A DNA stretch of 24,912 nucleotides from the NCBI RefSeq assembly GCF_009671205.1, contig NZ_CP045310.1, positions 1-24,912 on the forward strand, in the 5' to 3' direction. The DNA comes from Micromonospora terminaliae (lineage in GTDB: Bacteria; Actinomycetota; Actinomycetes; Mycobacteriales; Micromonosporaceae). The notes beneath the pieces were generated by a model. The model was not told where the DNA came from. It searched no databases and saw only the letters and a list, made by a program, of their open reading frames with translations. The translations under genes were made by a program, and so were the position numbers. The stretch's first letter is position 1, and each line of letters starts with the position of its first letter. Positions 1 through 24,912 of this stretch are shown here, one piece after another.

Positions 1-477
1 GCCGACTACATCCGGGGAGTGATGCGCGGTGGCCCGCACACCCTCAGCGACGAGCAGGTGGAGCAGCGGGTCAAGCTGCGCCTCGACCGCCAGCAACGGC
101 TCACGGGTGACGATCCGCCGATCCTCGACGCCATCATCGACGAGGGGGCGTTACTGCGCCCGGTCGGGGACCGGACCGTGATGGGGGGTCAGCTCCAGCA
201 CCTGCTCAAGATGGCCGAACTGCCGAACATCACCGTGCAGGTGATCCCCCTCTCCGCCGGATACCACCGGGGGACCCGGGGGTCGCTGCACATCCTGGAG
301 TTCGCCGACCCGGAGGACCCGATCATCGCCTCGGTGGAGACGGTCGCCGGGCAGATGGTGCTGGACCGGCCGGGCGACCTGCGCACCTGCACGAAGATCA
401 TGGAGCACCTGCGGACCGTGGCGCTGAGCCCGGCGGCCAGCCGGGACGAGCTGCTCCGCCTGCTGAACGAGAGGTAG
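1..477 (+). CDS. XRE-family regulator, C-terminal part (arm A copy)
   Basis: This is the C-terminal 158 residues of the 281-aa regulator found complete at 22334-23179; it enters the window at residue 124 of that protein, so the 5' end is missing only because the window starts here. It covers most of the C-terminal effector region (DUF5753 type) and lacks the helix-turn-helix. The stop codon is 5 nt before the DUF397 start. The residues agree with the complete copies in arms B and C. Confidence 0.9.
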   Translation, partial: ADYIRGVMRGGPHTLSDEQVEQRVKLRLDRQQRLTGDDPPILDAIIDEGALLRPVGDRTVMGGQLQHLLKMAELPNITVQVIPLSAGYHRGTRGSLHILEFADPEDPIIASVETVAGQMVLDRPGDLRTCTKIMEHLRTVALSPAASRDELLRLLNER

Positions 478-482
478 GAAGC

Positions 483-683
483 ATGAACGGCACGAACAGC
501 CACCGACGGCCGGTGACCGGCTGGCGCAAGAGCAGCCACAGCGGCGATGAGGGCGCGTGCGTCGAGATGGCGCCGCTGCCGGAGGCGGTCGCGGTCCGCG
601 ACTCCAAGGACCCGGCCGGCCCGGTGCTGGTGTTCCGCCCGGCCGCCTGGGCCGCCTTCACCGACGCCCCGCCGCGCCCCTGA
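483..683 (+). CDS. DUF397 small protein (arm A copy)
   Basis: Copy of the 66-aa DUF397 protein described at 23185-23385. The ATG is preceded by GAGAGG (469-474), which lies in the last codons of the XRE gene, so the two are cotranscribed and probably translationally coupled. The stop codon TGA (681-683) lies in the first unit of a 14-bp tandem repeat. Confidence 0.9.
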   Translation: MNGTNSHRRPVTGWRKSSHSGDEGACVEMAPLPEAVAVRDSKDPAGPVLVFRPAAWAAFTDAPPRP

Positions 684-745
684 TCCGGCAGCCCTGATCC
701 GCCGCCCCTGACTCGCCGGCCCTGACCCGCCGGCCCTGGTCCGCC
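676..745 (+). repeat. 14-bp tandem repeat, five units (arm A copy)
   Basis: Five imperfect 14-bp units of the form GCCCTGAYCCGCCG run from the last codons of DUF397 into the gap before the ROK gene. See 12061-12130 for the same array on the other strand. Confidence 0.85.
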
Positions 746-763
746 GGGCGGCGACGCCGCGGC

Positions 764-1816
764 TCAGCCGGCGACCAGCGGGCCGGCGGCGGCCCCGCCG
801 CGGACCGCCTCCAGCGCCGCGATGGCCACCCCGCGCGCCCCGGCCATGTCCCGGTCGGGCACCAGCGCGAAGGTCGCCACCGCGCGCTGCTCGGCGCGGA
901 GCACGGTGTGCTCCCGCACGGTGGCCAGGAACCAGTCGCGGAACTCCGGCGCCGCCTCCACCACCCCGCCGCCCACGAAGTACGCGTGCGGGTCGGTGAA
1001 GTTGGCCGCGATGGTGAACAGCCGACCCAGCGCCATGGCCTGCTGGGTGAAGAGCTCGCGCGCCAGCGGGTCGCCCCGCTCGCCGTAGCCGCGGACGAGC
1101 TTCGCCGCCCGGGCCGGTTCCTCGGCGGCCAGCGGGTGCCCCGGGAACCGGCCCAGCCAGTACGGCAGCAGGTTGTTCGCGATGGCGGTGAGCGAGGCGA
1201 CGCTCTCCACGTCGCCGGCGAAGCCGCAGGCGCACACGGGCACCGGCTGGCCCGGCCCGAGCAGCCCGTCGAGCGGGATGTGCACGTGCCCGAACTCGCC
1301 GGCCATGCCGGCCGCACCGCCGACCACCCGGCCGCTCTCGACCACGCCGCCACCGAGCCCGGTGCCCACGATCGCGGCGACCGAGGACCGGGCCATCGCG
1401 TCGGCGCCGAAATGCGTGTGGTGGGCGTAGAGGGCCGCCGCGTTGCCGTCGTTGGCGTAGACCACGGGCAGGCCGAGCCGGTGCTCCAGCGCGCTGCGCA
1501 CGTCGTAGCCGCGCCAGGCGGGCTGGGAGAAGTTGGTCGAGCCGCGCGAGGAGATCACCCCGGTGGCGCTGGCCGGGCCGGGGGTGTCCAGCCCGACCGC
1601 GCGGACCAGCTCGCGGGGCACCCCGGTGAGCGCCAGCACCCCGTCCAGGGCCCGGGCGAGAGCCTCGATCGCCGCCTCCGGACCGGCCTGGACCTCGCTC
1701 GGGATCTCGACCAGCCCGTCCACCAGGAACCGGCCGTCGACCGTCAGCACGGTGGCGTTGTTGCTCGTGCCGCCGTTGTCCAGACCCACCACCACCGGCA
1801 CACCCGCACTGCCCAC
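764..1816 (-). CDS. ROK-family sugar kinase (arm A copy)
   Basis: Same gene as 10990-12042, with identical translation. The GTG at 1816 is preferred to the GTG six bases upstream (1822) because the GGGAGG ribosome-binding site then has an 8-nt spacer and not a 2-nt one. It is convergent with DUF397 across the 14-bp repeat array. Confidence 0.9.
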   Translation of the reverse strand: MGSAGVPVVVGLDNGGTSNNATVLTVDGRFLVDGLVEIPSEVQAGPEAAIEALARALDGVLALTGVPRELVRAVGLDTPGPASATGVISSRGSTNFSQPAWRGYDVRSALEHRLGLPVVYANDGNAAALYAHHTHFGADAMARSSVAAIVGTGLGGGVVESGRVVGGAAGMAGEFGHVHIPLDGLLGPGQPVPVCACGFAGDVESVASLTAIANNLLPYWLGRFPGHPLAAEEPARAAKLVRGYGERGDPLARELFTQQAMALGRLFTIAANFTDPHAYFVGGGVVEAAPEFRDWFLATVREHTVLRAEQRAVATFALVPDRDMAGARGVAIAALEAVRGGAAAGPLVAG

Positions 1817-1885
1817 CGCCACCGCCTCCCGCCGAGCCTGACCTGAGGCTAGTTGCCGCCGCGGGGTCCCGCCACGGTCGCGCGG

Positions 1886-1903
1886 CCCGCCCGGGTGGGC
1901 GGG
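1886..1903 (-). terminator. GC hairpin after the PrmC-like gene (arm A copy)
   Basis: CCCGCCC/GGGCGGG with a 4-nt loop lies ten bases beyond the methyltransferase stop. It has no T-run. It is the same structure as 10903-10920. Confidence 0.4.
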
Positions 1904-1913
1904 GCCGGGCGCC

Positions 1914-2705
1914 TCACCCGGGGCGGCGGGCCGTGACGGCGGTGGCCTCCAGGTCGTCGTCGTGCACCACGGACGGGTCCAGGCCGGCGTCGGTGAGGAT
2001 GGCGCAGAGCGCCGTGGCCTGGCCGGCGCTCACCTCCACCGCGAGGTGCCCACCGGGGGCCAGCCACTCGGCCGCGCCGGCGGCCACCCGGCGCAGCACG
2101 GCCAGCCCGTCCGCGCCGCCGTCCAGCGCCACCGGGGCCTCGTGCAGCCGCGCCTCCGGCGGCAGCATGGCCACCGCGTCGCTCGGCACGTACGGGGCGT
2201 TCGCCACCACCAGGTCCAGCCGCCCCCGCCACCGGGCCGGCAGCGGCGCGAACAGGTCGCCCTGGTAGACCGGCACGCCCAGCGGGGTCAGGTTGCGCCG
2301 GGCGCAGGCCACCGCGGCCGGGTCGACGTCGGCGGCGGCCAGCCAGCGGGGCGCCAGCCGGCCGTGCAGCACCAGCGCGGCGGCGCCCGAACCGCAGCAG
2401 AGGTCGAGCACGGCGGGCGACGGGCCGGCCACCGCCGCGGCGGCGGTGACCAGCAGGGCGGTCCGCCCGCGGGGCACGAACACCCCGGGGTCGACGGCGA
2501 CCCGCAGGCCGCAGAACTCGGCCCAGCCGAGCAGGTGCTCGAGCGGCAGGCCGGCGACCCGGCGGTCGACCAGGTCGGTCAGCGCCTCGGCCGAGTCGGC
2601 GGCGGCGATGAGCAGCTCCGCCTCGTCCTCGGCGAAGACGCAGCCGGCGGCGCGCAACCGCCGGACGAGGGCGGGACGGTCCGGGGAGAACAGGGTGGCT
2701 GGCAT
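1914..2705 (-). CDS. PrmC/HemK-like protein N5-glutamine methyltransferase (arm A copy)
   Basis: Same 263-aa protein as 10101-10892, with identical translation. The ATG is preceded by GAAAGG six bases upstream and by the structured leader found at 2730-2782. It is downstream of the PLP-enzyme gene on the same strand but appears to have its own promoter. Confidence 0.92.
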   Translation of the reverse strand: MPATLFSPDRPALVRRLRAAGCVFAEDEAELLIAAADSAEALTDLVDRRVAGLPLEHLLGWAEFCGLRVAVDPGVFVPRGRTALLVTAAAAVAGPSPAVLDLCCGSGAAALVLHGRLAPRWLAAADVDPAAVACARRNLTPLGVPVYQGDLFAPLPARWRGRLDLVVANAPYVPSDAVAMLPPEARLHEAPVALDGGADGLAVLRRVAAGAAEWLAPGGHLAVEVSAGQATALCAILTDAGLDPSVVHDDDLEATAVTARRPG

Positions 2706-2880
2706 GGCAGGCCTTTCGGAACGCTCGTCGGCGCTCCCGGCGTCGCCTAACCCTGGGGCGACGCGGACTCGGAGGGAGCGCCGGTCCTCTGCTGGTGGAT
2801 CGGTCTCACCTCCTCCGGTCGGGGCCCACGCGGGCCGCTGCTGCCCCGTCAGCGTAGCGGAGCGGCCGGGCCGGCGTCAG
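2706..2880 (-). promoter_or_regulatory. Promoter and structured 5' leader of the PrmC-like gene (arm A copy)
   Basis: Mirror of 9926-10100: putative -35 CTGACG (2875-2880) over the stop codon of the PLP gene, -10 TACGCT (2851-2856), then a leader of about 140 nt with a small GGCCC hairpin, an extended GGAGGTGA ribosome-binding sequence without an ATG, and a large two-part hairpin. I compared the GGAGGTGA and ATC stretch with arm B directly and it agrees there. Confidence 0.4.
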
Positions 2881-3989
2881 GCCGCGTCGAGCGCGGCGGT
2901 CACGTCGGCGACCAGGTCGGCGGCGTCCTCGATGCCACAGGAGAGCCGGACGAAGCCGGGCGCCGTGTCGTCCCCCCACTGGGCCCGGCGGTCGGCGGTG
3001 GTGTGCAGCCCGCCGAACGAGGTGGCGGCGGACACCAGCCGGGACGCGTCGAGGAACCGGGCGACCCGGTCGGCGTCACCCAGGTCGAAGGAGAGCACGC
3101 CCGGCATCCGTCGCATCTGGACCGACGCCACCGCGTACGCCGGGTCGGTCGCCAGCCCCGGCCAGCGCAGGCCGGTGACATCGTCGCGGCCGGCGAGCAG
3201 CCGGGCCAGCGCCTCGGCGTTGGCGGTCTGCCGGCCCAGCCGCAGGTCCACGGTCGCCAGCGAGCGGTGGGCCAGCCAGCAGTCGAACGGCCCGGGCACC
3301 CCGCCGGTCGTGGTCCGCCAGGCGGTCACCGCGTCGAGCAGCTCGGCCGAGCGGGTCGCCACGTAACCGAGCAGCAGGTCCGAATGGCCGGTGAGGGCCT
3401 TGGTGCCGGAGGCGACCACCACGTCGGCGCCGAGCTCCAGCGGGCGCTGCCCGAGCGGGGTGGCGGTGGTGTTGTCGACGGCCACCAGCGCTCCGGCGCC
3501 GTGCGCCGCGACAGCCAGCGCCGGCACGTCGGCCACGTCCAGGCCGGGGTTCGCCGGTGTCTCCAGCAGCACCAGCCGGACGCCCTCGAACGACGGGTAC
3601 GGGCCGGCCGTCGGCACGAAACCGACGCGTACCCCGATGCCCTCCAGGGTGGCGGTGGCGAAGGCGCGCACCGGGAAGTAGCCGTCGGCGGGGAGCAGCA
3701 CGGTGTCGCCGGGGCGCAGCAGGGCCAGCAGCAGCCCCGTGATGGCCGCCTGGCCGCTGGCGAAGACCCGGCAGTCGCCGCCCTCCAGCTCGCCGACGGC
3801 CGCCTCCAGCAGCCGCCGGGTGGGGTTGTCCGGCCGCCCGTACCCGTTGGGGGTCGCCTCCGGCCCCCGCCACGGGTCCAGGTGGTACGGCGCCGCGAAG
3901 ACCGGCCCGGGCAGGAAGGGCTGGCCCGGTTCCGGCGCGGGCAGCCCGGCGTGCACGCTGCGCGTGCCGTCACCCCACTCGTCGGTCAT
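2877..3989 (-). CDS. Cys/Met metabolism PLP-dependent enzyme (arm A copy)
   Basis: Same 370-aa protein as 8817-9929, with identical translation. It starts 7 nt after the gpsA stop and is therefore almost certainly cotranscribed with gpsA. Confidence 0.92.
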
Positions 3990-3996
3990 CGCCGCC

Positions 3997-5004
3997 TCAC
4001 TCGTACGACTCGGGCTTCGCGGTGCGGCTCATGAGGGCGTCCACGGCGAGCCGCGGGTCCATCCCCTCGTGGCAGATCCGCTCGATCTGCTCGGTGATCG
4101 GCATCTCGACGCCGTGCGCCCGGGCCAGGTCCCGGATGGCGAGGCAGCTCTTCACGCCCTCGGCGGTCTGCCGGGTGGCCGCCTGCGCCTGCTCCAGCGT
4201 CTCCCCCCGGCCCAGGTGCTCGCCGAAGGTGCGGTTGCGGGCCAGCGGCGACGTGCAGGAGGCCACGAGGTCGCCCATGCCGGCCAGCCCGGCGAAGGTG
4301 ATCGGATCGGCGCCCAGGGCCACGCCAAGCCGGGCGGTCTCGGCCAGGCCGCGGGTCATGAGCATGGCGCGGGTGTTGTCGCCGAAGCCCATGGCGGTCG
4401 CGATGCCGTACGACAGGGCGATCACGTTCTTCACGGCTCCGCCCAGCTCGCAGCCGATCACGTCGTCGTTGGTGTACGGCCGGAAGTACGGCGTGCGGAT
4501 CGACGACTGCACCAGGGCGGTCCGGCGGCTGTCGGTGCCGGCGACCACGGTCGCGGCCGGCTGCTCGGCGGCGATCTCCGGGGCCAGGTTGGGGCCGGAG
4601 ACGACGACCACCCGGTCGGCCGGCACCCCGGCGGTCTCCATGATCACCTGGCTCATCCGCTTGGTGGTGCCCAGCTCGATGCCCTTCATGAGTGAGACGA
4701 GCGTGGCGTCCGGGTCCAGGTACGGGGTCCACTCGGCGAGGTTGCCGCGCAGCGTCTGCGACGGCACGGAGAGCACCACCACCTCGGCGCCGGCGATGGC
4801 CTCCTCGGCGTCACCGGTCGCGGTGACCCGGTCGGGCAGCCGCACGTCCGGCAGGTAGTCCGGATTGTGGCGCCCGGTCCGGATCGCCTCGGCCACCGAG
4901 GCGCGCCGGGCCAGGATGGTCACCTCCCGGCCGGCGTCGGCAAGGATCTTGGCGAAGGCGGTGCCCCACGAGCCCGCTCCCAACACCGCGACATGCCCGC
5001 TCAC
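3997..5004 (-). CDS. gpsA: Glycerol-3-phosphate dehydrogenase [NAD(P)+]
   Basis: GpsA reduces dihydroxyacetone phosphate to sn-glycerol-3-phosphate in the cytoplasm, supplying the backbone of phospholipids. The 335-aa product has the usual family length. The N-terminal Rossmann fold carries GAGSWG (9-14). SLMKGIE (104-110) holds one conserved lysine, [10 protein letters not shown] spans 136-145, [10 protein letters not shown] (188-197) carries the catalytic Lys192, and the substrate-binding NRTFG lies near 257-261. The GTG start is supported by an immediate nucleotide-binding strand ([10 protein letters not shown]). The plsC gene is 55 nt upstream and the PLP enzyme 7 nt downstream on the same strand, so glycerol phosphate supply and its acylation are neighbours. 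This copy reads GRGETLEQ with six G's; arm B has nine G's and one extra glycine, so I take this version as correct. Confidence 0.96.
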
Positions 5005-5059
5005 TGCGCCACCTTCGTTCGCGACTGCGGGGCTCGCAACACCGGCTCACTCCTCGCGC
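5005..5059 (-). other. plsC-gpsA spacer with possible interspersed repeat (arm A copy)
   Basis: This 55-nt gap contains an imperfect hairpin, TTGCGA pairing with TCGCGAA around GCCCCGCAG. It resembles intergenic filler I associate with Micromonospora genomes, but no second non-mirror copy exists in this window to prove it is a repeat. Confidence 0.25.
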
Positions 5060-5785
5060 TCACTCGGTCACCTCGGGCGTACGCGTCCGGGCCGGCCGCT
5101 CCCACAGCGGCGGCGGTGTGCCACCGCGGATCTCCGCCACCAGGTCCCGGATCCGCAGCATGATCGTGTCGGTCATCTCCTCCAGGATCGCCCGGGTCGG
5201 CGTGGCGCCCGCCCACCGGCTCAGGTCGACCGGCGGCCCGGCGACCACCGTCACCGGGGTACGCGGGCGCAGCCCGACGCGGGCGGTCCGCGGGTCGAAC
5301 ATCTTCTCCGGGCCGACCATGGCGACCGGGATCACCGGGGCGCCGGTGGCCAGCGCCAGCCGGGCCGCGCCGGTCTTGCCCTTCATGGGCCACAGGTCCG
5401 GCTCGCGGGTGGTGGTCCCCTCCGGGTAGATCACCACCGCGCCACCCTCGTGCACGGCGGCCACCAGCTTGTCCAGCGACCGGGCCGCCTCGACGCTGCC
5501 GCGCTCCACCGGGATCTGCTTGCAGCGGTGCAGGATCCAGCCGATCACCGGCACCCGGAACACGCTGGCCTTGCCGAGGAACTGCGGCCAGCGCCCGGCG
5601 TCGTGGATGAAGTGCGCGGACACCAGCGGGTCCGCGTGCGAGATGTGGTTCGGCACGATGATGATCCCGCCCTCGCGGGGCAGGTGCTCCATCCCCCGCC
5701 AGGTGCGGCGGGTCCAGACGGTCAACACCGGCTTCACCAGCACCACGGCGAACCGTGGCCAGAATCCCAGCCTCCGCGGTGCCAC
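5060..5785 (-). CDS. plsC: 1-acyl-sn-glycerol-3-phosphate acyltransferase (arm A copy)
   Basis: Same 241-aa protein as 7018-7743. It is divergent from cofC across a 111-nt gap. The GTG at 5785 follows a strong GAGGAGG ribosome-binding site. Confidence 0.92.
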   Translation of the reverse strand: MAPRRLGFWPRFAVVLVKPVLTVWTRRTWRGMEHLPREGGIIIVPNHISHADPLVSAHFIHDAGRWPQFLGKASVFRVPVIGWILHRCKQIPVERGSVEAARSLDKLVAAVHEGGAVVIYPEGTTTREPDLWPMKGKTGAARLALATGAPVIPVAMVGPEKMFDPRTARVGLRPRTPVTVVAGPPVDLSRWAGATPTRAILEEMTDTIMLRIRDLVAEIRGGTPPPLWERPARTRTPEVTE

Positions 5786-5863
5786 CCTGCCTCCTCGTTC
5801 CGCCCCACGCGCGCGCACGCCCCGGGACGAAATCATGCCTGCTCGCTCCCGGTCCGGCCAGTG

Positions 5864-5869
5864 AGGGTA
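5864..5869 (-). promoter_or_regulatory. Possible -10 element for plsC
   Basis: TACCCT on the minus strand fits the actinobacterial TAnnnT pattern and lies about 80 nt before the plsC GTG. I find no convincing -35 at the right spacing. The arm B copy has one C fewer here (TACCTC), so the exact sequence is uncertain. Confidence 0.2.
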
Positions 5870-5896
5870 CCGCCGGGCGGCTGGCAGGATTGTCAC

Positions 5897-6431
5897 GTGC
5901 CTGAGCCGACCTGGACCGTGGTGGTGCCGGTGAAGCGCCTCGGGGTGGCGAAGAGCCGCCTGCGCGGGGCGCTGCCCGGCGTACCCCATGAGGAGCTGGC
6001 GCTGGCCCTCGCGGCCGACACGGTCCGCGCGGTGCGGGCCTGCCCGGCGGTGGCCCGGGTGCTCGTGGTGACCGACGATCCCCGGGTCGCGGCGGAGGCG
6101 ACCGCGGCCGGCGCGGCGGTCGCGCCGGACCCGGCGGCCGGCCTGAACGCGGCCTTCCGGCACGGCGCGGCGGTGGCCGGCGCGGGCGCCGCCGTGGCCG
6201 GCCTGACCGCCGACCTGCCCGCGCTGCGCCCGGCCGACCTGGCCGCGGCGCTCCGGGCCGTTCCTGCCGACGGGGTACGCGGATTCGTGGCCGACGCCCC
6301 GGGCAGCGGCACCGTGCTGCTCGCCGCGCCACCCGGGGTGCCCCTGGCGCCCCGGTTCGGGCCCGGCTCGGCGGCGGCGCACGCGGCGAGCGGGGCGCTG
6401 CCGCTGCCCGGCGGCTGGCCCACGCTCGCCC
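5897..6431 (+). CDS. cofC: 2-phospho-L-lactate/phosphoenolpyruvate guanylyltransferase, 3' end lost at J1
   Basis: CofC (FbiD in mycobacteria) activates 2-phospholactate or phosphoenolpyruvate with GTP, an early step in coenzyme F420 synthesis. The N-terminal nucleotidyltransferase signature VPVKRLGVAKSRL (10-22) is clear. DPAAGLNAAF (78-87), ADLPALR (105-111), SGTVLL (137-142) and FGPGSAAAH (154-162) follow in family order. The frame is genuine to about residue 178 (WPTLAR); after base 6431 it runs into reverse-complement sequence, so the last 25-40 residues are missing. GTG start chosen because VPEPTWTVVVPVK is a typical N-terminus. There is no clear ribosome-binding site, and a CAGGAT at 5885-5890 could be a -10 of a leaderless transcript. 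It is divergent from plsC. Confidence 0.85.
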
Positions 6432-6433
6432 GT
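6381..6433. other. Junction J1: fold-back turn inside cofC
   Basis: Arm A reads through to about 6431 in the cofC frame. Sequence from about 6433 is the reverse complement of arm A from about 6380 backwards. The roughly 50 intervening bases are present once. Over the next 200 bases arm B differs from arm A by many 1-7 nt deletions and insertions (for example CCCCC for CCCC near 6525, and missing blocks near 6468 and 6482). This error density is not seen elsewhere. Confidence 0.85.
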
Positions 6434-6903
6434 GGCCGCCGCGAGCCGGCCGAACCGGGCGCCAGGGCCGGGTGGCGCGGCGCGGTGCCGCTGCCCCGGG
6501 GCGTCGGCCACGAATCCGCGTACCCCCGTCGGCAGGAACGCGCCCGGAGCGCCGCGGCCAGGTGCGGCCGGGCGCAGCGCGGGCAGGTCGGCGGTCAGGC
6601 CGGCCACGGCGGCGCCCGCGCCGCCACCGCCGCGCCGTGCCGGAAGGCCGCGTTCAGGCCGGCCGCCGGGTCCGGCGCGACCGCCGCGCCGGCCGCGGTC
6701 GCCTCCGCCGCGACCCGGGGATCGTCGGTCACCACGAGCACCCGGGCCACCGCCGGGCAGGCCCGCACCGCGCGGACCGTGTCGGCCGCGAGGGCCAGCG
6801 CCAGCTCCTCATGGGGTACGCCGGGCAGCGCCCCGCGCAGGCGGCTCTTCGCCACCCCGAGGCGCTTCACCGGCACCACCACGGTCCAGGTCGGCTCAGG
6901 CAC
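6432..6903 (-). pseudogene. cofC: cofC, broken copy beside J1 (arm B)
   Basis: The GTG is at 6901-6903 and the frame matches the arm A copy to about residue 94, where one missing C (near 6620) shifts it; further indels follow up to J1. The frame defects lie in the error-dense strip beside the turn and are better explained as sequencing or assembly error than as true gene decay. Use 5897-6431 for the protein sequence. Confidence 0.7.
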
Positions 6904-7017
6904 GTGACAATCCTGCCAGCCGCCCGGCGGTACCTCACTGGCCGGACCGGGAGCGAGCGAGCAGGCATGATTTCGTCCCGGGGCGTGCGCGCGCGTGGGG
7001 CGGAACGAGGAGGCAGG

Positions 7018-7743
7018 GTGGCACCGCGGAGGCTGGGATTCTGGCCACGGTTCGCCGTGGTGCTGGTGAAGCCGGTGTTGACCGTCTGGACCCGCCGCAC
7101 CTGGCGGGGGATGGAGCACCTGCCCCGCGAGGGCGGGATCATCATCGTGCCGAACCACATCTCGCACGCGGACCCGCTGGTGTCCGCGCACTTCATCCAC
7201 GACGCCGGGCGCTGGCCGCAGTTCCTCGGCAAGGCCAGCGTGTTCCGGGTGCCGGTGATCGGCTGGATCCTGCACCGCTGCAAGCAGATCCCGGTGGAGC
7301 GCGGCAGCGTCGAGGCGGCCCGGTCGCTGGACAAGCTGGTGGCCGCCGTGCACGAGGGTGGCGCGGTGGTGATCTACCCGGAGGGGACCACCACCCGCGA
7401 GCCGGACCTGTGGCCCATGAAGGGCAAGACCGGCGCGGCCCGGCTGGCGCTGGCCACCGGCGCCCCGGTGATCCCGGTCGCCATGGTCGGCCCGGAGAAG
7501 ATGTTCGACCCGCGGACCGCCCGCGTCGGGCTGCGCCCGCGTACCCCGGTGACGGTGGTCGCCGGGCCGCCGGTCGACCTGAGCCGGTGGGCGGGCGCCA
7601 CGCCGACCCGGGCGATCCTGGAGGAGATGACCGACACGATCATGCTGCGGATCCGGGACCTGGTGGCGGAGATCCGCGGTGGCACACCGCCGCCGCTGTG
7701 GGAGCGGCCGGCCCGGACGCGTACGCCCGAGGTGACCGAGTGA
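7018..7743 (+). CDS. plsC: 1-acyl-sn-glycerol-3-phosphate acyltransferase
   Basis: PlsC-type membrane acyltransferase that adds the second acyl chain to lysophosphatidic acid, giving phosphatidic acid. The 241-aa product carries the four family blocks: NHISHAD (46-52) with the HX4D catalytic pair His47/Asp52, GKASVFRVPVIGW (71-83) followed by PVERG (92-96), PEGTTT (121-126), and APVIPVAM (149-156). The hydrophobic stretch FWPRFAVVLVKPVL (8-21) may touch the membrane. GTG 7018 is chosen over ATG 6967 because GAGGAGG lies a few bases upstream (about 7007-7013), and the extra residues of the longer form look unstructured. It is the first gene of a same-strand group with gpsA and the PLP enzyme. 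Substrate preference (lysophosphatidate or another lyso-lipid) cannot be read from sequence. Confidence 0.92.
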   Translation: MAPRRLGFWPRFAVVLVKPVLTVWTRRTWRGMEHLPREGGIIIVPNHISHADPLVSAHFIHDAGRWPQFLGKASVFRVPVIGWILHRCKQIPVERGSVEAARSLDKLVAAVHEGGAVVIYPEGTTTREPDLWPMKGKTGAARLALATGAPVIPVAMVGPEKMFDPRTARVGLRPRTPVTVVAGPPVDLSRWAGATPTRAILEEMTDTIMLRIRDLVAEIRGGTPPPLWERPARTRTPEVTE

Positions 7744-17535: not shown

Positions 17536-17544
17536 CCCGCGCCG

Positions 17545-17757: not shown

Positions 17758-17962
17758 CACCGCGGTGGACGGCCGCCGGGCCGCCCTGCGGGTGCCCGGT
17801 GTGCTCGACGTGCAGATCGAGGCGAAGGTCGGCGACCAGGTGCCGGAGCTGCTCTCCTCGGCGCACCGCAGCGGGCACCTGCTGGCCTGGGGCGCCACCC
17901 CCACCGACGCGGAGAGCGCCGCCCGCAAGGCCGCCGGCGAGATCCGGATCACCGCCGGCTGA
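17754..17962 (+). CDS. ATP-grasp (biotin-carboxylase-like) protein, C-terminal end
   Basis: About 68 codons reach the stop at 17960-17962. The segment reads like the C-terminal lobe of ATP-grasp ligases of the biotin carboxylase / amino-acid ligase type: VPGVLDVQIEAKVGDQV, then HLLAWGATPTDAESAARKA, then EIRIT (strand, turn, G-x-T-x-x-E/D-A helix). The ATP-binding and catalytic parts lie beyond J2 and are missing, so the substrate cannot be guessed. It is convergent with the GNAT gene. It could also be an isolated C-terminal-like domain, but truncation at J2 is simpler. Confidence 0.55.
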
Positions 17963-17971
17963 CGGCGCGGG

Positions 17972-18433
17972 TCAGAGCGTGCGGCCGTACGAGAGGCAGC
18001 CGGGCGCGTCCTGGTAGAAGCCGAAGTTCGGGATGCGCTCGTAGCCGGCCGAGGTGTACATGGCGATCGCCTCGGGCTGCTTGTCGCCGCACTCCAGGAT
18101 GATCCGCTTGCGGCCGTGGTCCCGGGCGGACCGCTCGACGGCGGCGAGCACCGCTCGGGCCACGCCCCGGCCCCGGGCCGCCGGCGCCGTGTACATCCGC
18201 TTCAGCTCGGCCGTGTCGTCGCCGTGGCTGCGCCACCCGCCGCAGCCCACCGGCTCCCCGTCGAGGTAGGCCACCAGGAAGGTGCCGGCCGGCGGCTCGA
18301 ACTCGGCCGCGTCGACCGGGGTGTCGTCGCCGTTGCCGCCGTACCGCGCGCCGAGGTCGGCCAGGGCCGCCCGGATCAACGCCTGCGACTCGGGCGCGTC
18401 GAAGCGCTGCGCCCGGATCTCGATCTCACTCAC
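17972..18433 (-). CDS. GNAT-family N-acetyltransferase
   Basis: Acetyl-CoA-dependent N-acetyltransferase of 153 aa, single domain. The acetyl-CoA pyrophosphate loop is in ELKRMYTAPAARGRGVAR (76-93; RGRGVA is the R/Q-x-x-G-x-G/A motif), preceded by the strand TFLVAYLDGEPVGCGGW (51-67) and followed by IILECGDKQPEAIAMY (111-126) and SAGYERI, the usual C-terminal half. GTG 18433 is preferred to the longer ATG start at 18487 because the extra residues (GPPAGRGP...) lie over the -10 TACGCT and are not fold-like. It follows thiL on the same strand. The acceptor (amine, amino acid or drug) cannot be inferred. Confidence 0.88.
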   Translation of the reverse strand: MSEIEIRAQRFDAPESQALIRAALADLGARYGGNGDDTPVDAAEFEPPAGTFLVAYLDGEPVGCGGWRSHGDDTAELKRMYTAPAARGRGVARAVLAAVERSARDHGRKRIILECGDKQPEAIAMYTSAGYERIPNFGFYQDAPGCLSYGRTL

Positions 18434-18497
18434 GGGATGCAAGCGTACGGCCGGTCCCCGGCCCGCCGGTGGCCCGATCACCCGCATCGGACGCAGA

Positions 18498-19445
18498 TCA
18501 CTCCCCCCGGCGGAAGTGGTCCCAGCCGGCCGGGCCCGCGTACGGCGTGCCGTCGACGGTCACCCCCGTTCCCTCGATCACCCGCCCGACCGGCCGCCAG
18601 CCCGCCGGCAGCGTCGCCTCCGCCGGGAAGGTCGCCGCCAGCGCGTGGTCGTCGCCCCCGGCCAGGATCCACGAGTACGGGTCGACGCCGAGCGCCTGCG
18701 CCGCGTCGCGCATCTGCCGGGGCACCTCGAACGCCTCCCGGGTGAGGTCGACGGCCACCCCGCTGGCCTTCGCCACGTGCCCCAGGTCGGCGAGCAGCCC
18801 GTCCGACACGTCGATCATGGCGGTGGCGCCGTGCGCGGCGGCCTCCGGGCCGGCGGCGTAGGGCACCTCGGGGCGGCGGAACGCCTCCACGAGCAGCCGG
18901 GGCGTGCGGAACCCCCGGGACAGCACGGTGTAGCCGGCGGCCGCCCAGCCGGTGCGCCCGGCGAGGGCCACCACGTCGCCGGGGCGGGCGCCGGAGCGGA
19001 CCACCGGCGGCCGGCCGGCCAGGTCACCCAGGGCGGTCACCGCGACGGTCAGCGTCGGGCTGGCGGACATGTCCCCGCCCACCACGCTCGCGCCCACCAG
19101 GGCCGCCTCGGCGCCCAGCCCGTCGGCCAGCTCCTCGGCCCAGCCCGGGTCGAGGTCCGCCGGCATGCAGAGGGCGACCAGCAGCGCGGTCGGGGTGGCC
19201 CCCATGGCCGCGATGTCGGCCAGGTTGGCCGCCGCGGCCCGGTGCCCCACGTCCCGGGCCCCCGACCAGTCCCGGCGGAAGTGCCGCCCCTCGACCAGCA
19301 CGTCGGTGGAGGCGACCACCCGCCGGTCCGGCGCCGCCACCACCGCCGCGTCGTCTCCGGGGCCGAGCAGGCAGCTCTCCCCCTGGGCCAACCGGGCGGT
19401 CACCCGGTCGATCAGCCCGAACTCACCGACACCCGCGACCGTCAT
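18498..19445 (-). CDS. thiL: Thiamine-monophosphate kinase
   Basis: ThiL phosphorylates thiamine monophosphate with ATP to thiamine diphosphate, the active cofactor. The 315-aa product is of normal length. It has GEFGLIDRV (7-15), the metal-binding GPGDDAAV (28-35), ASTDVLVEGRHF (45-56), AAANLADIAAMGA (71-83), VGGDMSASP (122-130) and IDVSDGLLADLGH in the second half, all AIR-synthase/ThiL-type Mg-ATP motifs. ATG 19445 has GAGGGG seven bases upstream. The open frame continues far upstream through the ddl antisense strand, but that extension is meaningless. It is divergent from the Lrp-domain gene and upstream of GNAT. No other thi gene is nearby; this thiL-Lrp-DUF3515-ddl neighbourhood is familiar from actinobacteria. 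Confidence 0.95.
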   Translation of the reverse strand: MTVAGVGEFGLIDRVTARLAQGESCLLGPGDDAAVVAAPDRRVVASTDVLVEGRHFRRDWSGARDVGHRAAAANLADIAAMGATPTALLVALCMPADLDPGWAEELADGLGAEAALVGASVVGGDMSASPTLTVAVTALGDLAGRPPVVRSGARPGDVVALAGRTGWAAAGYTVLSRGFRTPRLLVEAFRRPEVPYAAGPEAAAHGATAMIDVSDGLLADLGHVAKASGVAVDLTREAFEVPRQMRDAAQALGVDPYSWILAGGDDHALAATFPAEATLPAGWRPVGRVIEGTGVTVDGTPYAGPAGWDHFRRGE

Positions 19446-19553
19446 GCCGTCCCCTCGTCGCGCTCTTCCAGCTCCGCAGTCCCGCCACCACTGCCCCACG
19501 TGTGCTCGCTCACCGCGGTCCCCCGGCGACCGAGACAGATCAGGGCCGCTCCG

Positions 19554-19584
19554 TAGGGTAGTTTCACCCTTCGGGCCGCCGAAG
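19554..19584 (+). promoter_or_regulatory. Putative promoter/operator and hairpin before the Lrp-domain gene
   Basis: TAGGGT (19554-19559) fits a -10. AGGGT (19555-19559) and ACCCT (19566-19570) form an inverted repeat over the start region, and CTTCGG (19569-19574) with CCGAAG (19579-19584) makes a 6-bp leader hairpin. The -35 is weak. The repeat could be an operator for autoregulation, which is inference. Confidence 0.3.
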
Positions 19585-19607
19585 CGGCGACGGACGGAGG
19601 TCGAGTC

Positions 19608-19841
19608 GTGGTACAGGCGTACATCCTCATCCAGACGGAGGTCGGTCGCGCACGTGACGTGGCCGGTCAGATCGCGGACCTCGCCGGCGTGGTACGCGTC
19701 GACGCCGTCACCGGGCCCTACGACGTGGTCGTCCTCACCGAGGCGAACACCGTCGACGAGCTCGGCAAACTCATCGTCAGCAAGGTGCAGCTGGTGCCCG
19801 GCATCACCCGCACCCTCACGTGTTCGGTGGTGCGCCTGTAA
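19608..19841 (+). CDS. Stand-alone Lrp/AsnC ligand-binding (RAM) domain protein
   Basis: 77-aa protein consisting only of the alpha/beta sandwich that binds amino acids in Lrp/AsnC regulators: VQAYILIQTEVGR (2-14), then the helix ARDVAGQIADLAGVV, DAVTGPYDVVVLTEA (32-46), ELGKLIVSKVQLVPGI (51-66) and TRTLTCSVV. There is no helix-turn-helix, so it cannot bind DNA by itself; such proteins may act as small-molecule sensors or mix with full-length Lrp proteins. The GTG start has GGAGG nine bases upstream. It is cotranscribed with DUF3515, whose GTG touches its TAA. Lrp proteins sense amino acids, and ddl lies nearby, but a link to D-alanine is speculation. Confidence 0.9.
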   Translation: MVQAYILIQTEVGRARDVAGQIADLAGVVRVDAVTGPYDVVVLTEANTVDELGKLIVSKVQLVPGITRTLTCSVVRL

Positions 19842-20456
19842 GTGGAAGAGATCACGTCCTCCCCCGCCGCCGAGGAGTCCCGCCCGGCGCGCCGCGACCG
19901 GTCGACCCGCAGCGCCGCGCTCTGGGCCACCCTCGTCGCGGTGCCGGTCACCCTGGCGGTGGCCGGGTTCACCTTCGCCAAGCTCGCCCCGGACTCCCCG
20001 GCCGCCGCGCCGAGTCCGTCGGCGTCCGCCGCCCGGCCGCAGTCGAGCGCGCCGGTCGAGCTGCCGGCCCCGGCCCTGGCCGAGCGGCCCGCCACGGTGT
20101 GCCGCGCCCTGGTGTCGCAGCTGCCGGCGACCGTCCGCGACCTGGCGCAGCGTCCGGTCACCGCGGGCGCCGAGCAGAACGCCGCGTACGGCGATCCGGC
20201 GCTCACCGTTGCCTGCGGCGGCACGCCGCCGATCGTGCAGCCCACCGACGAGGTGTGGTCGGTGAACAAGGTCTGCTGGCATGCCGTGCAGGAGGCCGAC
20301 GCCACCGTGCTGACCACCGTCGACCGGGAGACCCCGGTGCGGGTGCGGGTGCCGAAGCAGTACGAGCAGCCGCTCCAGTGGGTCACGCCGATCTCCGACG
20401 CGGTGGTCGCCTCGGTGCCCGCCGCGAAGACGGCACCGTCCGGCTGCTCCGCCTGA
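19842..20456 (+). CDS. DUF3515 membrane-anchored protein
   Basis: 204-aa protein of the actinobacterial DUF3515 family, function unknown. A short cytoplasmic head rich in Arg (14-23) is followed by one hydrophobic segment (about 26-47), a Pro/Ala/Ser-rich linker (52-76) and an extracellular domain with four cysteines (in [21 protein letters not shown] and the C-terminal SGCSA), suggesting two disulfide bonds. The N-terminus has no lipobox, so it is a signal-anchor. GTG 19842 directly follows the TAA of the Lrp-domain gene (TAAGTG) with no ribosome-binding site of its own, so translation is probably by reinitiation. It is convergent with ddl over a strong terminator; position near cell-wall genes hints at an envelope role. 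Confidence 0.85.
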   Translation: MEEITSSPAAEESRPARRDRSTRSAALWATLVAVPVTLAVAGFTFAKLAPDSPAAAPSPSASAARPQSSAPVELPAPALAERPATVCRALVSQLPATVRDLAQRPVTAGAEQNAAYGDPALTVACGGTPPIVQPTDEVWSVNKVCWHAVQEADATVLTTVDRETPVRVRVPKQYEQPLQWVTPISDAVVASVPAAKTAPSGCSA

Positions 20457-20461
20457 CCGTC

Positions 20462-20496
20462 GCCGCGCCGGCCGCGGAGTCAGCGGCCGGCGCGGC
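20462..20496. terminator. Bidirectional terminator between DUF3515 and ddl
   Basis: Perfect 14-bp stem with a 7-nt loop holding the ddl stop codon on the minus strand. Same structure as 15012-15046. Confidence 0.65.
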
Positions 20497-21574
20497 GCAG
20501 GGCGGTGCGGATGAGCCGGTTGACCAGTTTCGGATACTCCAGCCCGCTGGCCGCCCACATGCGCGGGAACATCGAGGTCGGGGTGAAGCCCGGCATGGTG
20601 TTGATCTCGTTGAGATAGACGTCCAGCTCCGGGGTGACGAAGAAGTCGGCCCGGGCCAGGCCGGAGCAGTCCAGCGCGGTGAACGCGCGCGTGGCGTACT
20701 CGCGCACCTGCCGGGTCACGTGCTCGGGCAGGTTCGCCGGGATGTCGTACTCGCAGGCGTCGTCGATGTACTTGGCCTCGAAGTCGTACCAGTCGTGGCC
20801 GGAGACCACCCGCACCTCGGCCAGCACCGACGCCTCCGGGGCGCCGCCGGCCTCGCCCTCCAGCACGCCGCACTCGATCTCGCGGCCCACGATCGCGCCC
20901 TCGACGAGCACCTTCGTGTCGATCTCCCGGGCCGTGGCGACCGCCGCGTCGAGCTGCGCCCAGTCGTCGACCTTCGTGATGCCGAACGACGAACCGGCGC
21001 GGGACGGCTTCACGAAGACCGGCAGGCCGAGGCGCTCCTTGTCCTCCTCGGTCAGCGTCATCCCGGCGCGCAGCACCACGTACGGGCCGACCGGGATGCC
21101 CTCGGCGGCGCAGAGCTTCTTGGTGAACTCCTTGTCCATGGCGGCCGCCGAGGCGAACACGTTCGCACCGACGTAGGGGATGTCCGCCATCTCCAGCATC
21201 CCCTGGATGGTGCCGTCCTCCCCGTACGCGCCGTGCAGCACCGGAAAGACCACGTCCACGTCGGCCAGCGCCACCGGACCCTGGGTCGGGTCGAGCACCA
21301 TGAGGCCACCCACGGCCGGGTCGGCGCGCAGCACAAGCTCGGCGCCGGAGCCGGCGGTGATCTCGGGGAGCTTGCGGTCGGCGATGGCGAGCTGGCCGGG
21401 GTCGCCGCTGGCCAGCACCCACTGGCCCTGCCGGGTGATGCCGACCGGCACGACCTCGAACTCGTCGGGGTCGAGGGCGGCCAGCACGCTGCCGGCGCTG
21501 ACGCAGGAGATGCCGTGCTCCGGGCTGCGGCCGCCGAAGACGATCGCCACGCGGGTCTTACCTGGGGTGGTCAC
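20480..21574 (-). CDS. ddl: D-alanine--D-alanine ligase
   Basis: Cytoplasmic ATP-grasp ligase that joins two D-alanines for the peptidoglycan stem peptide. The 364-aa product has the N-terminal [18 protein letters not shown] (6-23), [27 protein letters not shown] (ATP-binding lysine and Ser loop), DFEAKYID in the omega loop and the Mg-binding [10 protein letters not shown]. The Tyr in EAKY is typical of D-Ala-D-Ala ligases; VanA-type D-lactate ligases differ there, so no glycopeptide resistance is implied. GTG 21574 is preferred to GTG 21595 because AGAGGTGA is then well placed and [10 protein letters not shown] is the usual N-terminus. Intact here, frameshifted in arm B. The gene is insulated upstream by two hairpins. 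Confidence 0.95.
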
Positions 21575-21752
21575 TCCGGTCACCTCTTCGTCCACGACTG
21601 CGGCTGGCCGTGCTCGCCGGGGGCGCTCACCCGCTTGACCTTACTGTGCGTGGCGAGCGTCGGTGGTGGATACCCGGGGAGACGGCACAGCAGGCCGCAG
21701 CCGGTCAACGAGTCGTATACGGGGAGTAACCGGATGGGCGGCGGTCAGGCCA

Positions 21753-21785
21753 GGCGGCCGGCGGCGGGACCTGCCACCGGCCGCC
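21753..21785 (-). terminator. Second hairpin after the 76-aa gene (arm C copy)
   Basis: Mirror of 13726-13758. Confidence 0.5.
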
Positions 21786-21791
21786 CGGCTC

Positions 21792-21822
21792 CCCGCCCCC
21801 GTCGCCGCGATCCGGGGGCGGG
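21792..21822 (-). terminator. Strong hairpin after the 76-aa gene (arm C copy)
   Basis: Mirror of 13689-13719, with a perfect 10-bp stem. Confidence 0.6.
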
Positions 21823-21828
21823 CCCGGT

Positions 21829-22059
21829 TCAGTTGAGGTGATCCGGGGTGCGCGGCCGGCGGCCGACCGCGATGACCTTGACCCGTTGCCGGCCGGCGCG
21901 GACCATGCCCAGCGCCATGAAGGCGCCGGCGATCCGGTCCGCCGCCTCGCGGCTGCTCGCGCCGACGACCTGCCGGCGCCGCTCGGGGCTGGTGCGCTCG
22001 TTGCGCCAGAGGCCGTCGAGGGGACGCACGTCGGTGAGGACCACGAGGAACCGGGTCAT
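21829..22059 (-). CDS. Unknown 76-aa protein
   Basis: I do not recognise this protein. It starts MTRFLVVLTDVRP, a likely beta strand, has a basic middle (RTSPERRRQVVGASSREAADRIAGAFMALG, helix-forming), a second strand (RQRVKVIAVGRRPR) and ends TPDHLN. The beta-alpha-beta look and net positive charge could mean a small nucleic-acid- or protein-binding fold. The ATG overlaps the stop of a 15-codon ORF (ATGA), which implies translational coupling. Its gene runs divergently from the XRE regulator, sharing a gap with a long inverted repeat, and ends in two tandem hairpins, so it is probably its own transcription unit and may be controlled by the XRE protein. Confidence 0.6.
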   Translation of the reverse strand: MTRFLVVLTDVRPLDGLWRNERTSPERRRQVVGASSREAADRIAGAFMALGMVRAGRQRVKVIAVGRRPRTPDHLN

Positions 22060-22103
22060 CCCCGCCCGCCCTCGTCCGCCGGCTGGCAGGCCGTCACCGT
22101 CAT
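22056..22103 (-). CDS. Mini-ORF coupled to the 76-aa gene
   Basis: 15 codons from ATG 22103 with GGGGAGGAG five bases upstream, a far better ribosome-binding site than the one before the 76-aa ATG. The TGA overlaps that ATG by two bases. It likely serves to load ribosomes for the next gene; the peptide (MTVTACQPADEGGRG) is unknown. Confidence 0.45.
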   Translation of the reverse strand: MTVTACQPADEGGRG

Positions 22104-22140
22104 CGCCGCTCCTCCCCGTCCGGTGTGCCGGTCGGGGCAC

Positions 22141-22180
22141 GCGACGATCGGGTCGTGGGGGAGTAAAACCCGATCGCCGC
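22141..22180 (-). promoter_or_regulatory. Long inverted repeat between XRE and the 76-aa gene (arm C copy)
   Basis: Mirror of 13328-13367. It lies about 70 nt upstream of the XRE -35 element, on the side of the 76-aa gene. Confidence 0.5.
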
Positions 22181-22251
22181 GCGCCCCATCCCCTCCGGTC
22201 GCTCACCACCACCGTCGCCACGACAACCGGCGGTGAGGACGCCGTCACAGA

Positions 22252-22257
22252 TTGACA
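22252..22257 (+). promoter_or_regulatory. -35 element of the XRE/DUF397 operon
   Basis: A consensus TTGACA is followed 17-19 bp later by GCAACT/AACTCT, a poor -10. Transcription would begin near 22287, 11 nt before ATG 22298 and 47 nt before the preferred ATG 22334. The good -35 and weak -10 fit a regulated promoter. Confidence 0.4.
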
Positions 22258-22333
22258 GGTGGACACGCGTGAATGCAACTCTCATCGATCTTCTCTCATG
22301 CCCAAGCTCCCGTTGATGTGCGACCATCGATGC

Positions 22334-23179
22334 ATGGCGCCGAAGACCGCCCGGGCCCGACGGCTCGGCATCGCCCTGCGGACCCACCGGGAGGCCGCCG
22401 GCCTCACCCTGGAGGCCGCGGCCGACGAGATCAACAGCACCCGCAGCACCCTGTCCCGCTACGAGAACGCGCAGACGCTGGTCAGCCCGGCCACCGTGCG
22501 GGCGCTGCTCACCCTCTACGGGGTGGGGCCCGACGAGATCGCCGCGGCCGTGCAGCTCGCCAAGGACGCCCGCAAGCCGGGCTGGTGGGTCTCCTACTCG
22601 TACCTGCTGGACCGGCGGACCATCGACTTCATCGCCCTGGAGGCGGAGGCGACCGGCATCGCGAACTTCGAGCCGTCGGTGGTGCCCGGCCTGCTCCAGA
22701 CCGCCGACTACATCCGGGGAGTGATGCGCGGTGGCCCGCACACCCTCAGCGACGAGCAGGTGGAGCAGCGGGTCAAGCTGCGCCTCGACCGCCAGCAACG
22801 GCTCACGGGTGACGATCCGCCGATCCTCGACGCCATCATCGACGAGGGGGCGTTACTGCGCCCGGTCGGGGACCGGACCGTGATGGGGGGTCAGCTCCAG
22901 CACCTGCTCAAGATGGCCGAACTGCCGAACATCACCGTGCAGGTGATCCCCCTCTCCGCCGGATACCACCGGGGGACCCGGGGGTCGCTGCACATCCTGG
23001 AGTTCGCCGACCCGGAGGACCCGATCATCGCCTCGGTGGAGACGGTCGCCGGGCAGATGGTGCTGGACCGGCCGGGCGACCTGCGCACCTGCACGAAGAT
23101 CATGGAGCACCTGCGGACCGTGGCGCTGAGCCCGGCGGCCAGCCGGGACGAGCTGCTCCGCCTGCTGAACGAGAGGTAG
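22334..23179 (+). CDS. XRE-family transcriptional regulator with DUF5753-type C-terminal domain
   Basis: Helix-turn-helix regulator of 281 aa, the class abundant in filamentous actinobacteria and usually paired with a DUF397 protein. The HTH is at about 10-65: RRLGIALRTHREAAGLTLEA, AADEINSTRSTLSRYENA (recognition helix), then PATVRALLTLYGV. From about 85 on, WWVSYSYLLDRRTIDFIALEAEA, FEPSVVPGLLQTADYIR and the long C-terminal half (NITVQVIPLSAGYHRG) are the DUF5753 region. ATG 22334 is chosen because MAPKTARARRLG is the usual N-terminus; ATG 22298 and 22259 give 12- and 25-residue extensions that are not family-like, and none of the three has a clear ribosome-binding site. DUF397 follows 5 nt downstream. 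Such pairs often control development or secondary metabolism; the targets here are unknown. Confidence 0.9.
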   Translation: MAPKTARARRLGIALRTHREAAGLTLEAAADEINSTRSTLSRYENAQTLVSPATVRALLTLYGVGPDEIAAAVQLAKDARKPGWWVSYSYLLDRRTIDFIALEAEATGIANFEPSVVPGLLQTADYIRGVMRGGPHTLSDEQVEQRVKLRLDRQQRLTGDDPPILDAIIDEGALLRPVGDRTVMGGQLQHLLKMAELPNITVQVIPLSAGYHRGTRGSLHILEFADPEDPIIASVETVAGQMVLDRPGDLRTCTKIMEHLRTVALSPAASRDELLRLLNER

Positions 23180-23184
23180 GAAGC

Positions 23185-23385
23185 ATGAACGGCACGAACA
23201 GCCACCGACGGCCGGTGACCGGCTGGCGCAAGAGCAGCCACAGCGGCGATGAGGGCGCGTGCGTCGAGATGGCGCCGCTGCCGGAGGCGGTCGCGGTCCG
23301 CGACTCCAAGGACCCGGCCGGCCCGGTGCTGGTGTTCCGCCCGGCCGCCTGGGCCGCCTTCACCGACGCCCCGCCGCGCCCCTGA
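23185..23385 (+). CDS. DUF397 small protein
   Basis: 66-aa protein of the DUF397 family, partner of the XRE regulator just upstream. Signature residues GWRKSSHSGDEGACVEMA (13-30) and VAVRDSKDPAGPVLVFRPAAW (36-56) are complete. Proteins of this family are encoded next to XRE/DUF5753 regulators and are thought to modulate them by direct contact; this is family knowledge, not shown here. The ATG follows GAGAGG, which lies in the last XRE codons. The last codons run into the 14-bp tandem repeat, which supplies the stop. Confidence 0.92.
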   Translation: MNGTNSHRRPVTGWRKSSHSGDEGACVEMAPLPEAVAVRDSKDPAGPVLVFRPAAWAAFTDAPPRP

Positions 23386-23447
23386 TCCGGCAGCCCTGAT
23401 CCGCCGCCCCTGACTCGCCGGCCCTGACCCGCCGGCCCTGGTCCGCC
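23378..23447 (+). repeat. 14-bp tandem repeat, five units (arm C copy)
   Basis: Direct copy of 676-745. Confidence 0.85.
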
Positions 23448-23465
23448 GGGCGGCGACGCCGCGGC

Positions 23466-24518
23466 TCAGCCGGCGACCAGCGGGCCGGCGGCGGCCCCGC
23501 CGCGGACCGCCTCCAGCGCCGCGATGGCCACCCCGCGCGCCCCGGCCATGTCCCGGTCGGGCACCAGCGCGAAGGTCGCCACCGCGCGCTGCTCGGCGCG
23601 GAGCACGGTGTGCTCCCGCACGGTGGCCAGGAACCAGTCGCGGAACTCCGGCGCCGCCTCCACCACCCCGCCGCCCACGAAGTACGCGTGCGGGTCGGTG
23701 AAGTTGGCCGCGATGGTGAACAGCCGACCCAGCGCCATGGCCTGCTGGGTGAAGAGCTCGCGCGCCAGCGGGTCGCCCCGCTCGCCGTAGCCGCGGACGA
23801 GCTTCGCCGCCCGGGCCGGTTCCTCGGCGGCCAGCGGGTGCCCCGGGAACCGGCCCAGCCAGTACGGCAGCAGGTTGTTCGCGATGGCGGTGAGCGAGGC
23901 GACGCTCTCCACGTCGCCGGCGAAGCCGCAGGCGCACACGGGCACCGGCTGGCCCGGCCCGAGCAGCCCGTCGAGCGGGATGTGCACGTGCCCGAACTCG
24001 CCGGCCATGCCGGCCGCACCGCCGACCACCCGGCCGCTCTCGACCACGCCGCCACCGAGCCCGGTGCCCACGATCGCGGCGACCGAGGACCGGGCCATCG
24101 CGTCGGCGCCGAAATGCGTGTGGTGGGCGTAGAGGGCCGCCGCGTTGCCGTCGTTGGCGTAGACCACGGGCAGGCCGAGCCGGTGCTCCAGCGCGCTGCG
24201 CACGTCGTAGCCGCGCCAGGCGGGCTGGGAGAAGTTGGTCGAGCCGCGCGAGGAGATCACCCCGGTGGCGCTGGCCGGGCCGGGGGTGTCCAGCCCGACC
24301 GCGCGGACCAGCTCGCGGGGCACCCCGGTGAGCGCCAGCACCCCGTCCAGGGCCCGGGCGAGAGCCTCGATCGCCGCCTCCGGACCGGCCTGGACCTCGC
24401 TCGGGATCTCGACCAGCCCGTCCACCAGGAACCGGCCGTCGACCGTCAGCACGGTGGCGTTGTTGCTCGTGCCGCCGTTGTCCAGACCCACCACCACCGG
24501 CACACCCGCACTGCCCAC
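23466..24518 (-). CDS. ROK-family sugar kinase (arm C copy)
   Basis: Direct copy of 764-1816 with identical translation; see 10990-12042. Confidence 0.9.
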   Translation of the reverse strand: MGSAGVPVVVGLDNGGTSNNATVLTVDGRFLVDGLVEIPSEVQAGPEAAIEALARALDGVLALTGVPRELVRAVGLDTPGPASATGVISSRGSTNFSQPAWRGYDVRSALEHRLGLPVVYANDGNAAALYAHHTHFGADAMARSSVAAIVGTGLGGGVVESGRVVGGAAGMAGEFGHVHIPLDGLLGPGQPVPVCACGFAGDVESVASLTAIANNLLPYWLGRFPGHPLAAEEPARAAKLVRGYGERGDPLARELFTQQAMALGRLFTIAANFTDPHAYFVGGGVVEAAPEFRDWFLATVREHTVLRAEQRAVATFALVPDRDMAGARGVAIAALEAVRGGAAAGPLVAG

Positions 24519-24587
24519 CGCCACCGCCTCCCGCCGAGCCTGACCTGAGGCTAGTTGCCGCCGCGGGGTCCCGCCACGGTCGCGCGG

Positions 24588-24605
24588 CCCGCCCGGGTGG
24601 GCGGG
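24588..24605 (-). terminator. GC hairpin after the PrmC-like gene (arm C copy)
   Basis: Direct copy of 1886-1903. Confidence 0.4.
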
Positions 24606-24615
24606 GCCGGGCGCC

Positions 24616-24912
24616 TCACCCGGGGCGGCGGGCCGTGACGGCGGTGGCCTCCAGGTCGTCGTCGTGCACCACGGACGGGTCCAGGCCGGCGTCGGTGAGG
24701 ATGGCGCAGAGCGCCGTGGCCTGGCCGGCGCTCACCTCCACCGCGAGGTGCCCACCGGGGGCCAGCCACTCGGCCGCGCCGGCGGCCACCCGGCGCAGCA
24801 CGGCCAGCCCGTCCGCGCCGCCGTCCAGCGCCACCGGGGCCTCGTGCAGCCGCGCCTCCGGCGGCAGCATGGCCACCGCGTCGCTCGGCACGTACGGGGC
24901 GTTCGCCACCAC
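24616..24912 (-). CDS. PrmC-like methyltransferase, C-terminal part (window edge)
   Basis: The last 98 residues of the 263-aa protein at 10101-10892, beginning inside VVANAPYVP. The 5' part lies beyond the window end; by the 22,702-base period it should continue as base 2211 onward. Confidence 0.9.
   Translation of the reverse strand: MVANAPYVPSDAVAMLPPEARLHEAPVALDGGADGLAVLRRVAAGAAEWLAPGGHLAVEVSAGQATALCAILTDAGLDPSVVHDDDLEATAVTARRPG

Follow-up and report, generated by a model that had tools for sequence, protein, structure and literature searches.

A 24.9-kb inverted-dimer contig of Micromonospora terminaliae is probably an unsplit round-trip read of one chromosomal fragment

The window considered here (24,912 bp) is the entire contig NZ_CP045310.1 of Micromonospora terminaliae, hereafter C2; the Micromonospora-type assembly to which it belongs (GCF_009671205.1; G000) holds one further contig, C1, of 6,717,200 bp. 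Save for junction bases and indels (insertions and deletions), C2 consists wholly of one ~11.4-kb stretch of C1, present as three arms of alternating orientation (A, B and C; Table 1) that meet at two turns, J1 and J2. On C1, this unit lies uninterrupted at C1:170580-181955, with its genes ordered as in relatives. The unit genes of C1 encode CofC, acyltransferase (plsC-like), glycerol-3-phosphate dehydrogenase (gpsA), Cys/Met pyridoxal phosphate enzyme and methyltransferase domains, together with those of a ROK kinase, a helix-turn-helix/DUF5753 regulator, a D-Ala-D-Ala ligase (ddl), a DUF3515 protein, an AIR synthase-related protein (thiL) and a GNAT protein, while ppk lies directly outside. 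Both turn points fall inside genes and are without conservation in relatives. J1 cuts cofC, which in C1 encodes 280 amino acids (aa) with the CofC domain PF01983, and J2 cuts an ATP-grasp or L-amino acid ligase-like gene (C1:181746-183002, minus strand) whose 418-aa product carries ATP-grasp_4 and LAL_C2 domains.

The description of the window as an inverted dimer in the initial annotation is borne out by self-comparison and by inverted pairs centred on the two turns. Positions 10596-24912 align with their own reverse complement at 99.86% identity over 14,324 columns, and positions 1-12805 with theirs at 99.44%. A repeat search recovered eight inverted pairs in C2, six of them longer than 1 kb (4208, 2851, 1646, 1591, 1234 and 1052 nt) and each of these 100% complementary. 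The pairs are centred at ~6402 (J1) and ~17754 (J2), a spacing of ~11,351 that is half of 22,702, and this mirror structure far exceeds chance expectation. The last 2210 bases do repeat the first 2210 exactly, as had been claimed, and a genome search found four exact copies of bases 1-2210, all but one of them in C2 and the fourth in C1. The 22,702-base period stands in that the arms are spaced accordingly, but repetition is visible across 2210 bases only and does not show a circle. This 2.2-kb end overlap occurs because arms A and C, with 6.4 and 7.2 kb, add up to more than the 11.35-kb unit; it is no independent evidence of a circle, since a linear forward-back-forward read gives the same overlap. 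J1 and J2 are each present once in C2.

Table 1. Arms, junctions and selected reading frames of C2, with their relation to C1
Feature	Positions in C2	Strand	Remarks
Arm A	1..6426	-	C1:170580-177005 reversed; every letter equal to C1
Arm B	6427..17754	+	~C1:170618-181955, forward; all differences from C1 sit here
Arm C	17758..24912	-	C1:174796-181950 reversed; every letter equal to C1
End repeat copies	1..2210 and 22703..24912	+	identical, exact (self-comparison)
J1 and error-dense start of arm B	6427..6493	.	arm A ends at C1:170580, arm B resumes at ~C1:170618; cofC cut
J2	17755..17757	.	CCC between end of arm B (C1:181955) and start of arm C (C1:181950)
gpsA, arm A	3997..5004	-	equal to C1
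gpsA, arm B	7799..8809	+	336 aa vs 335 in C1 and arm A; +GGG in G run
ddl, arm B	13935..15125	+	frameshift near 3' end; 396 aa with foreign tail vs 364; C-terminal domain match 187 bits, down from 224
ddl, arm C	20480..21574	-	equal to C1
thiL, arm B	16063..16692	+	frameshift and truncation; 209 aa vs 315; AIRS_C domain lost
thiL, arm C	18498..19445	-	equal to C1
False fusion frame	5897..6907	+	336 aa; start of cofC through J1 into antisense of its own copy

The two turns differ in their fine structure. At J1, 38 bases are present on one side only, and the switch point carries a 4-nt CGCT match between the strands, inverted, with ~30 nt between. At J2, no microhomology or short inverted repeat was found, and three extra bases are present. 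C1 continues past both J1 and J2 into the remainder of the two cut genes; at the level of the assembly, this supplies the sequence that leaves the unit into cofC (J1) and into the ATP-grasp gene (J2), for which a search had been proposed at the outset. C2 mirrors a unit that the assembly also contains, uninterrupted, in its other contig. The two terminal 20-kb segments of C1 (1-20000 and 6697201-6717200) do not overlap and contain no hairpin. The start of C1 is not at dnaA, a gene located at 5.55 Mb.

Comparison with related genomes, also proposed with the first description, shows the unit region to be collinear across the junctions in relatives. One listed match spans J1 in 15 of 18 same-genus genomes, and one unbroken match crosses J2 in 6 of 30 relatives (G004, G006, G009, G010, G014 and G018). 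A collinearity scan covered 103 loci, including the J2 region of G000's own C1 and some loci without coverage of J1; the J1 flanks are collinear in 78 of the 79 loci that match both flanks, and no inverted pair of at least 150 bp at 90% identity was found among the 103. The exception at J1 is a locus of a metagenome-assembled genome (L095) at ~68-70% identity, in which the second flank is reversed, perhaps through a chance match.

The differences between C2 and C1 are of one kind over nearly the whole of arm B. Between 6494 and 17754, 13 differences from C1 were counted, all of them indel events (seven insertions and six deletions), with no substitution. From 6494 on, the arms are therefore separated by sequencing-type indels and not by evolutionary substitutions, with the caveat of three repeat-unit insertions considered below. 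Paralogy, or the divergence of a real second copy, was rejected on the lack of substitutions over this same range. The reading of the 67 positions that precede it (6427-6493) depends on alignment gap costs: a gap-tolerant alignment to C1 gives seven runs of dropped bases and zero mismatches, and stricter gap costs give four deletions and eight substitutions. The dropped bases cluster in the first ~65-70 bases past J1 and are confined to the returning strand; J2 is without such a burst.

These indels damage several genes in arm B. The arm B copy of cofC is frameshifted as well as cut by J1, and gpsA, ddl and thiL are altered as listed in Table 1. Intact copies of gpsA, ddl, thiL and cofC are present in C1, of ddl and thiL also in arm C, and of gpsA also in arm A. 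The fusion frame that crosses J1 could be called as a gene by an annotation program.

The state of C1 is the one usually found in relatives. For eleven indel sites (window positions >6540), C1 and arm B were matched against 102 loci from relatives, drawn from two pooled sets in which one species may occur twice. C1 is clearly the better match at eight of the 11, being favoured by 73/75, 67/68, 66/66, 76/76, 16/17, 47/47, 52/52 and 17/17 spanning loci. M. chaiyaphumensis (L023), the closest named relative, agrees better with C1 at all 10 covered sites of the 11 tested, gap-free at nine. Divergence that is confined to one arm and made up of indels alone fits a read that was insufficiently corrected and does not fit a molecule that replicates; replicating dimer molecules would each contain both arms, and one unpolished arm would therefore not be expected.

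C2 is probably an assembly artefact, namely the unsplit round-trip read of a hairpin-ended library molecule, with missed PacBio SMRTbell adapters, that was kept as a contig. A chromosomal fragment spanning the unit would have entered the library with a hairpin at both ends. The polymerase would then have copied one strand, turned at J1, copied the other strand, turned a second time at J2 and returned over the first. Had the adapters at both SMRTbell ends gone unrecognised, the read would have stayed unsplit, and the assembler may have retained it, or a few reads from it, as a small contig beside the normal chromosome. A dumbbell template would account for one turn at each end of the unit, for ~2.2 passes, for the error burst after a turn and for the single unpolished arm. 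A length of 24.9 kb from an 11.4-kb insert would correspond to a closed dumbbell read ~2.2 times, whereas a single fold-back gives one turn. We infer the sequencing platform, the missed-adapter step and the support of C2 by few reads. The initial annotation had named as probable causes an unsplit hairpin, a chimera produced by fold-back, or a read of this kind through which the assembler had circled, and this proposal is supported by the uninterrupted unit of C1, the frameshifting indels of one arm, the gene-cutting junctions and the collinear relatives; the same evidence agrees with its ranking of a true inverted amplification as the less likely alternative.

The missed-adapter route is described in the literature. 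According to the EC958 genome paper, missed SMRTbell adapters produce subreads made up of the forward insert, the adapter and the reverse insert, and read correction strips the adapter, such that these reads yield false hairpins and small spurious contigs (PMC4134206). Adapter sequence was present in 620 of 217,502 EC958 subreads (0.29%; PMC4134206). The Pacasus study likewise states that missed or missing SMRTbell adaptors give palindromic reads, and its unamplified PacBio control contained 0.5% palindromic reads, which were put down to false positives and to missed or missing adaptors (PMC6218980).

Several points weigh against this explanation. Three of the arm B insertions (at 6951, 8595 and 13441) are whole repeat units, consisting of GAGC in a GAGC tandem and GGG in two G runs, and differ from the single-base slips that raw reads would show and that occur elsewhere in arm B. 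Of the 11 indel sites, three are less clear (C1:170748, 170828 and 177996, with 36 vs 35, 48 vs 23 and 17 vs 13 loci); among the loci of close relatives, arm B is slightly preferred by L013 at 170748 and by L026 at 177996, and L024 is tied at 177641. No SMRTbell adapter remnant was found at J1 (score 13) or J2 (12), the mean of 300 random C2 stretches being 16.3 and 281 and 298 of these scoring at least as high as J1 and J2, respectively; a remnant at the turn is not strictly required, as adapters are removed by read correction (PMC4134206). The CGCT match at J1 could also come from a template switch. A survey that included three PacBio samples reports virtually zero fold-backs in HiFi Revio data, against a frequency of 0.55-0.6% for genomic DNA read by nanopore (PMC12870357), rates which favour nanopore or older PacBio chemistry. 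In addition, the choice between an artefact and a rare in-vivo molecule was made on indirect evidence.

The main rival is also an artefact, in which a 3' end is displaced, folds back onto the strand to which it belongs and is extended along it, here two times over, as a nanopore fold-back or a multiple-displacement amplification chimera. The 38-base loss and the CGCT match at J1 are what snap-back priming would leave, and neither junction holds adapter sequence. Fold-backs occur at the nanopore rate given above, and in amplified DNA palindromic reads reached 45.8% (PMC6218980). However, a fold-back would need two independent events bounding exactly the same 11.4 kb, J2 lacks microhomology, and the CGCT match is weak at this G+C content, being expected by chance in ~4% of cases on a rough hand estimate. 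Amplification would also be unusual for a cultured bacterium with a 6.7-Mb contig. This origin is therefore regarded as unlikely, and a missed adapter is, as a matter of judgement, preferred to a library fold-back.

Explanations in which C2 reflects a real molecule fare worse. A hairpin-capped 'dogbone' from a template switch at a replication fork, its 22.7-kb inverted-dimer circle or, in a fraction of the culture, a tandem inverted triplication of the locus would agree with the geometry of C2, with its assembly as its own contig and with the short inverted match at J1; inverted triplications are also known in bacteria. Against this, the arms differ by indels alone and in one arm only, breaking ddl and thiL, J2 has no short inverted repeat for a switch, and the locus is uninterrupted in C1. 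The single dnaA match lies at C1:5,550,473, outside C2, the origin itself not having been searched for. No replication gene was found among the nine unit genes scanned whole on C1, cofC and thiL, nor any replication or partition gene among the unit proteins scanned, which were mostly those of ~170 aa or more. A plasmid was rejected on this ground and because no plasmid record covers 80% of the unit at any one place, the seven records that match pieces of it each having their best place in the 60-80% identity band. A phage was likewise rejected, as no phage record matches at megablast sensitivity; both collections may omit records of this genome. A real molecule of these kinds is thus very improbable, and it is just as improbable that long reads caught a bacterial 11.4-kb dogbone, or its inverted-dimer circle, formed in the manner of origin-dependent inverted-repeat amplification (ODIRA), in which case the arm B indels would be low-depth noise. 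Least credible is a chromosome that truly bears a long inverted duplication or triplication at which C1 was collapsed. Assemblers do collapse identical repeats, yet C1 continues across both junctions into the remainder of each cut gene, with a gene order shared by relatives, no C2 sequence leaves the unit, and the scanned loci hold no inverted pair of the kind sought; a chromosomal inverted duplication was rejected on the uninterrupted unit and the gene order of relatives. Overall, it is very improbable that C2 represents a true plasmid or rearrangement.

Contigs such as C2 enter public databases, where they look like a 25-kb plasmid with duplicated, frameshifted housekeeping genes (gpsA, ddl and thiL). 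They inflate gene counts and can be mistaken for gene duplications or, with ddl, for resistance-related copies. Three features together provide a simple test that needs no reads: the contig over its whole length mirrors a stretch of a second contig from the same assembly, it differs from that stretch by indels only and on one arm, and its turns lie inside genes.

C2 can be compared with three known systems. The yeast ODIRA dogbone shares with it a closed inverted-dimer geometry with two inversion junctions, the product being an inverted dimeric circle (PMC10766183). ODIRA requires a short inverted repeat at each junction as well as an origin within the unit, whereas C2 has a 4-nt match at J1 and no repeat at J2, and no sign of an origin was seen in the unit, the origin itself not having been a target of the searches. 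Palindromic and fold-back reads resemble C2 in their near-perfect inverted copies with little or no spacer (PMC6218980; PMC12870357); in the accounts given by these sources they are reads, mostly with one turn, whereas in C2 a polished contig turns twice, once at each end of a single unit. The third system comprises the small spurious contigs from missed SMRTbell adapters described in the EC958 paper. The three small contigs of EC958 itself were judged to be real phage inversions, and the relevant passages of that paper describe the failure in general and without an example (PMC4134206). C2 also differs from that description in having kept two turns and a partial third pass. Both nevertheless share the insert read forward and then in reverse, the false hairpin, the small contig beside a large one and an adapter gone after correction (PMC4134206), and C2, very probably not a real feature, is probably the product of a failure mode already described in print.

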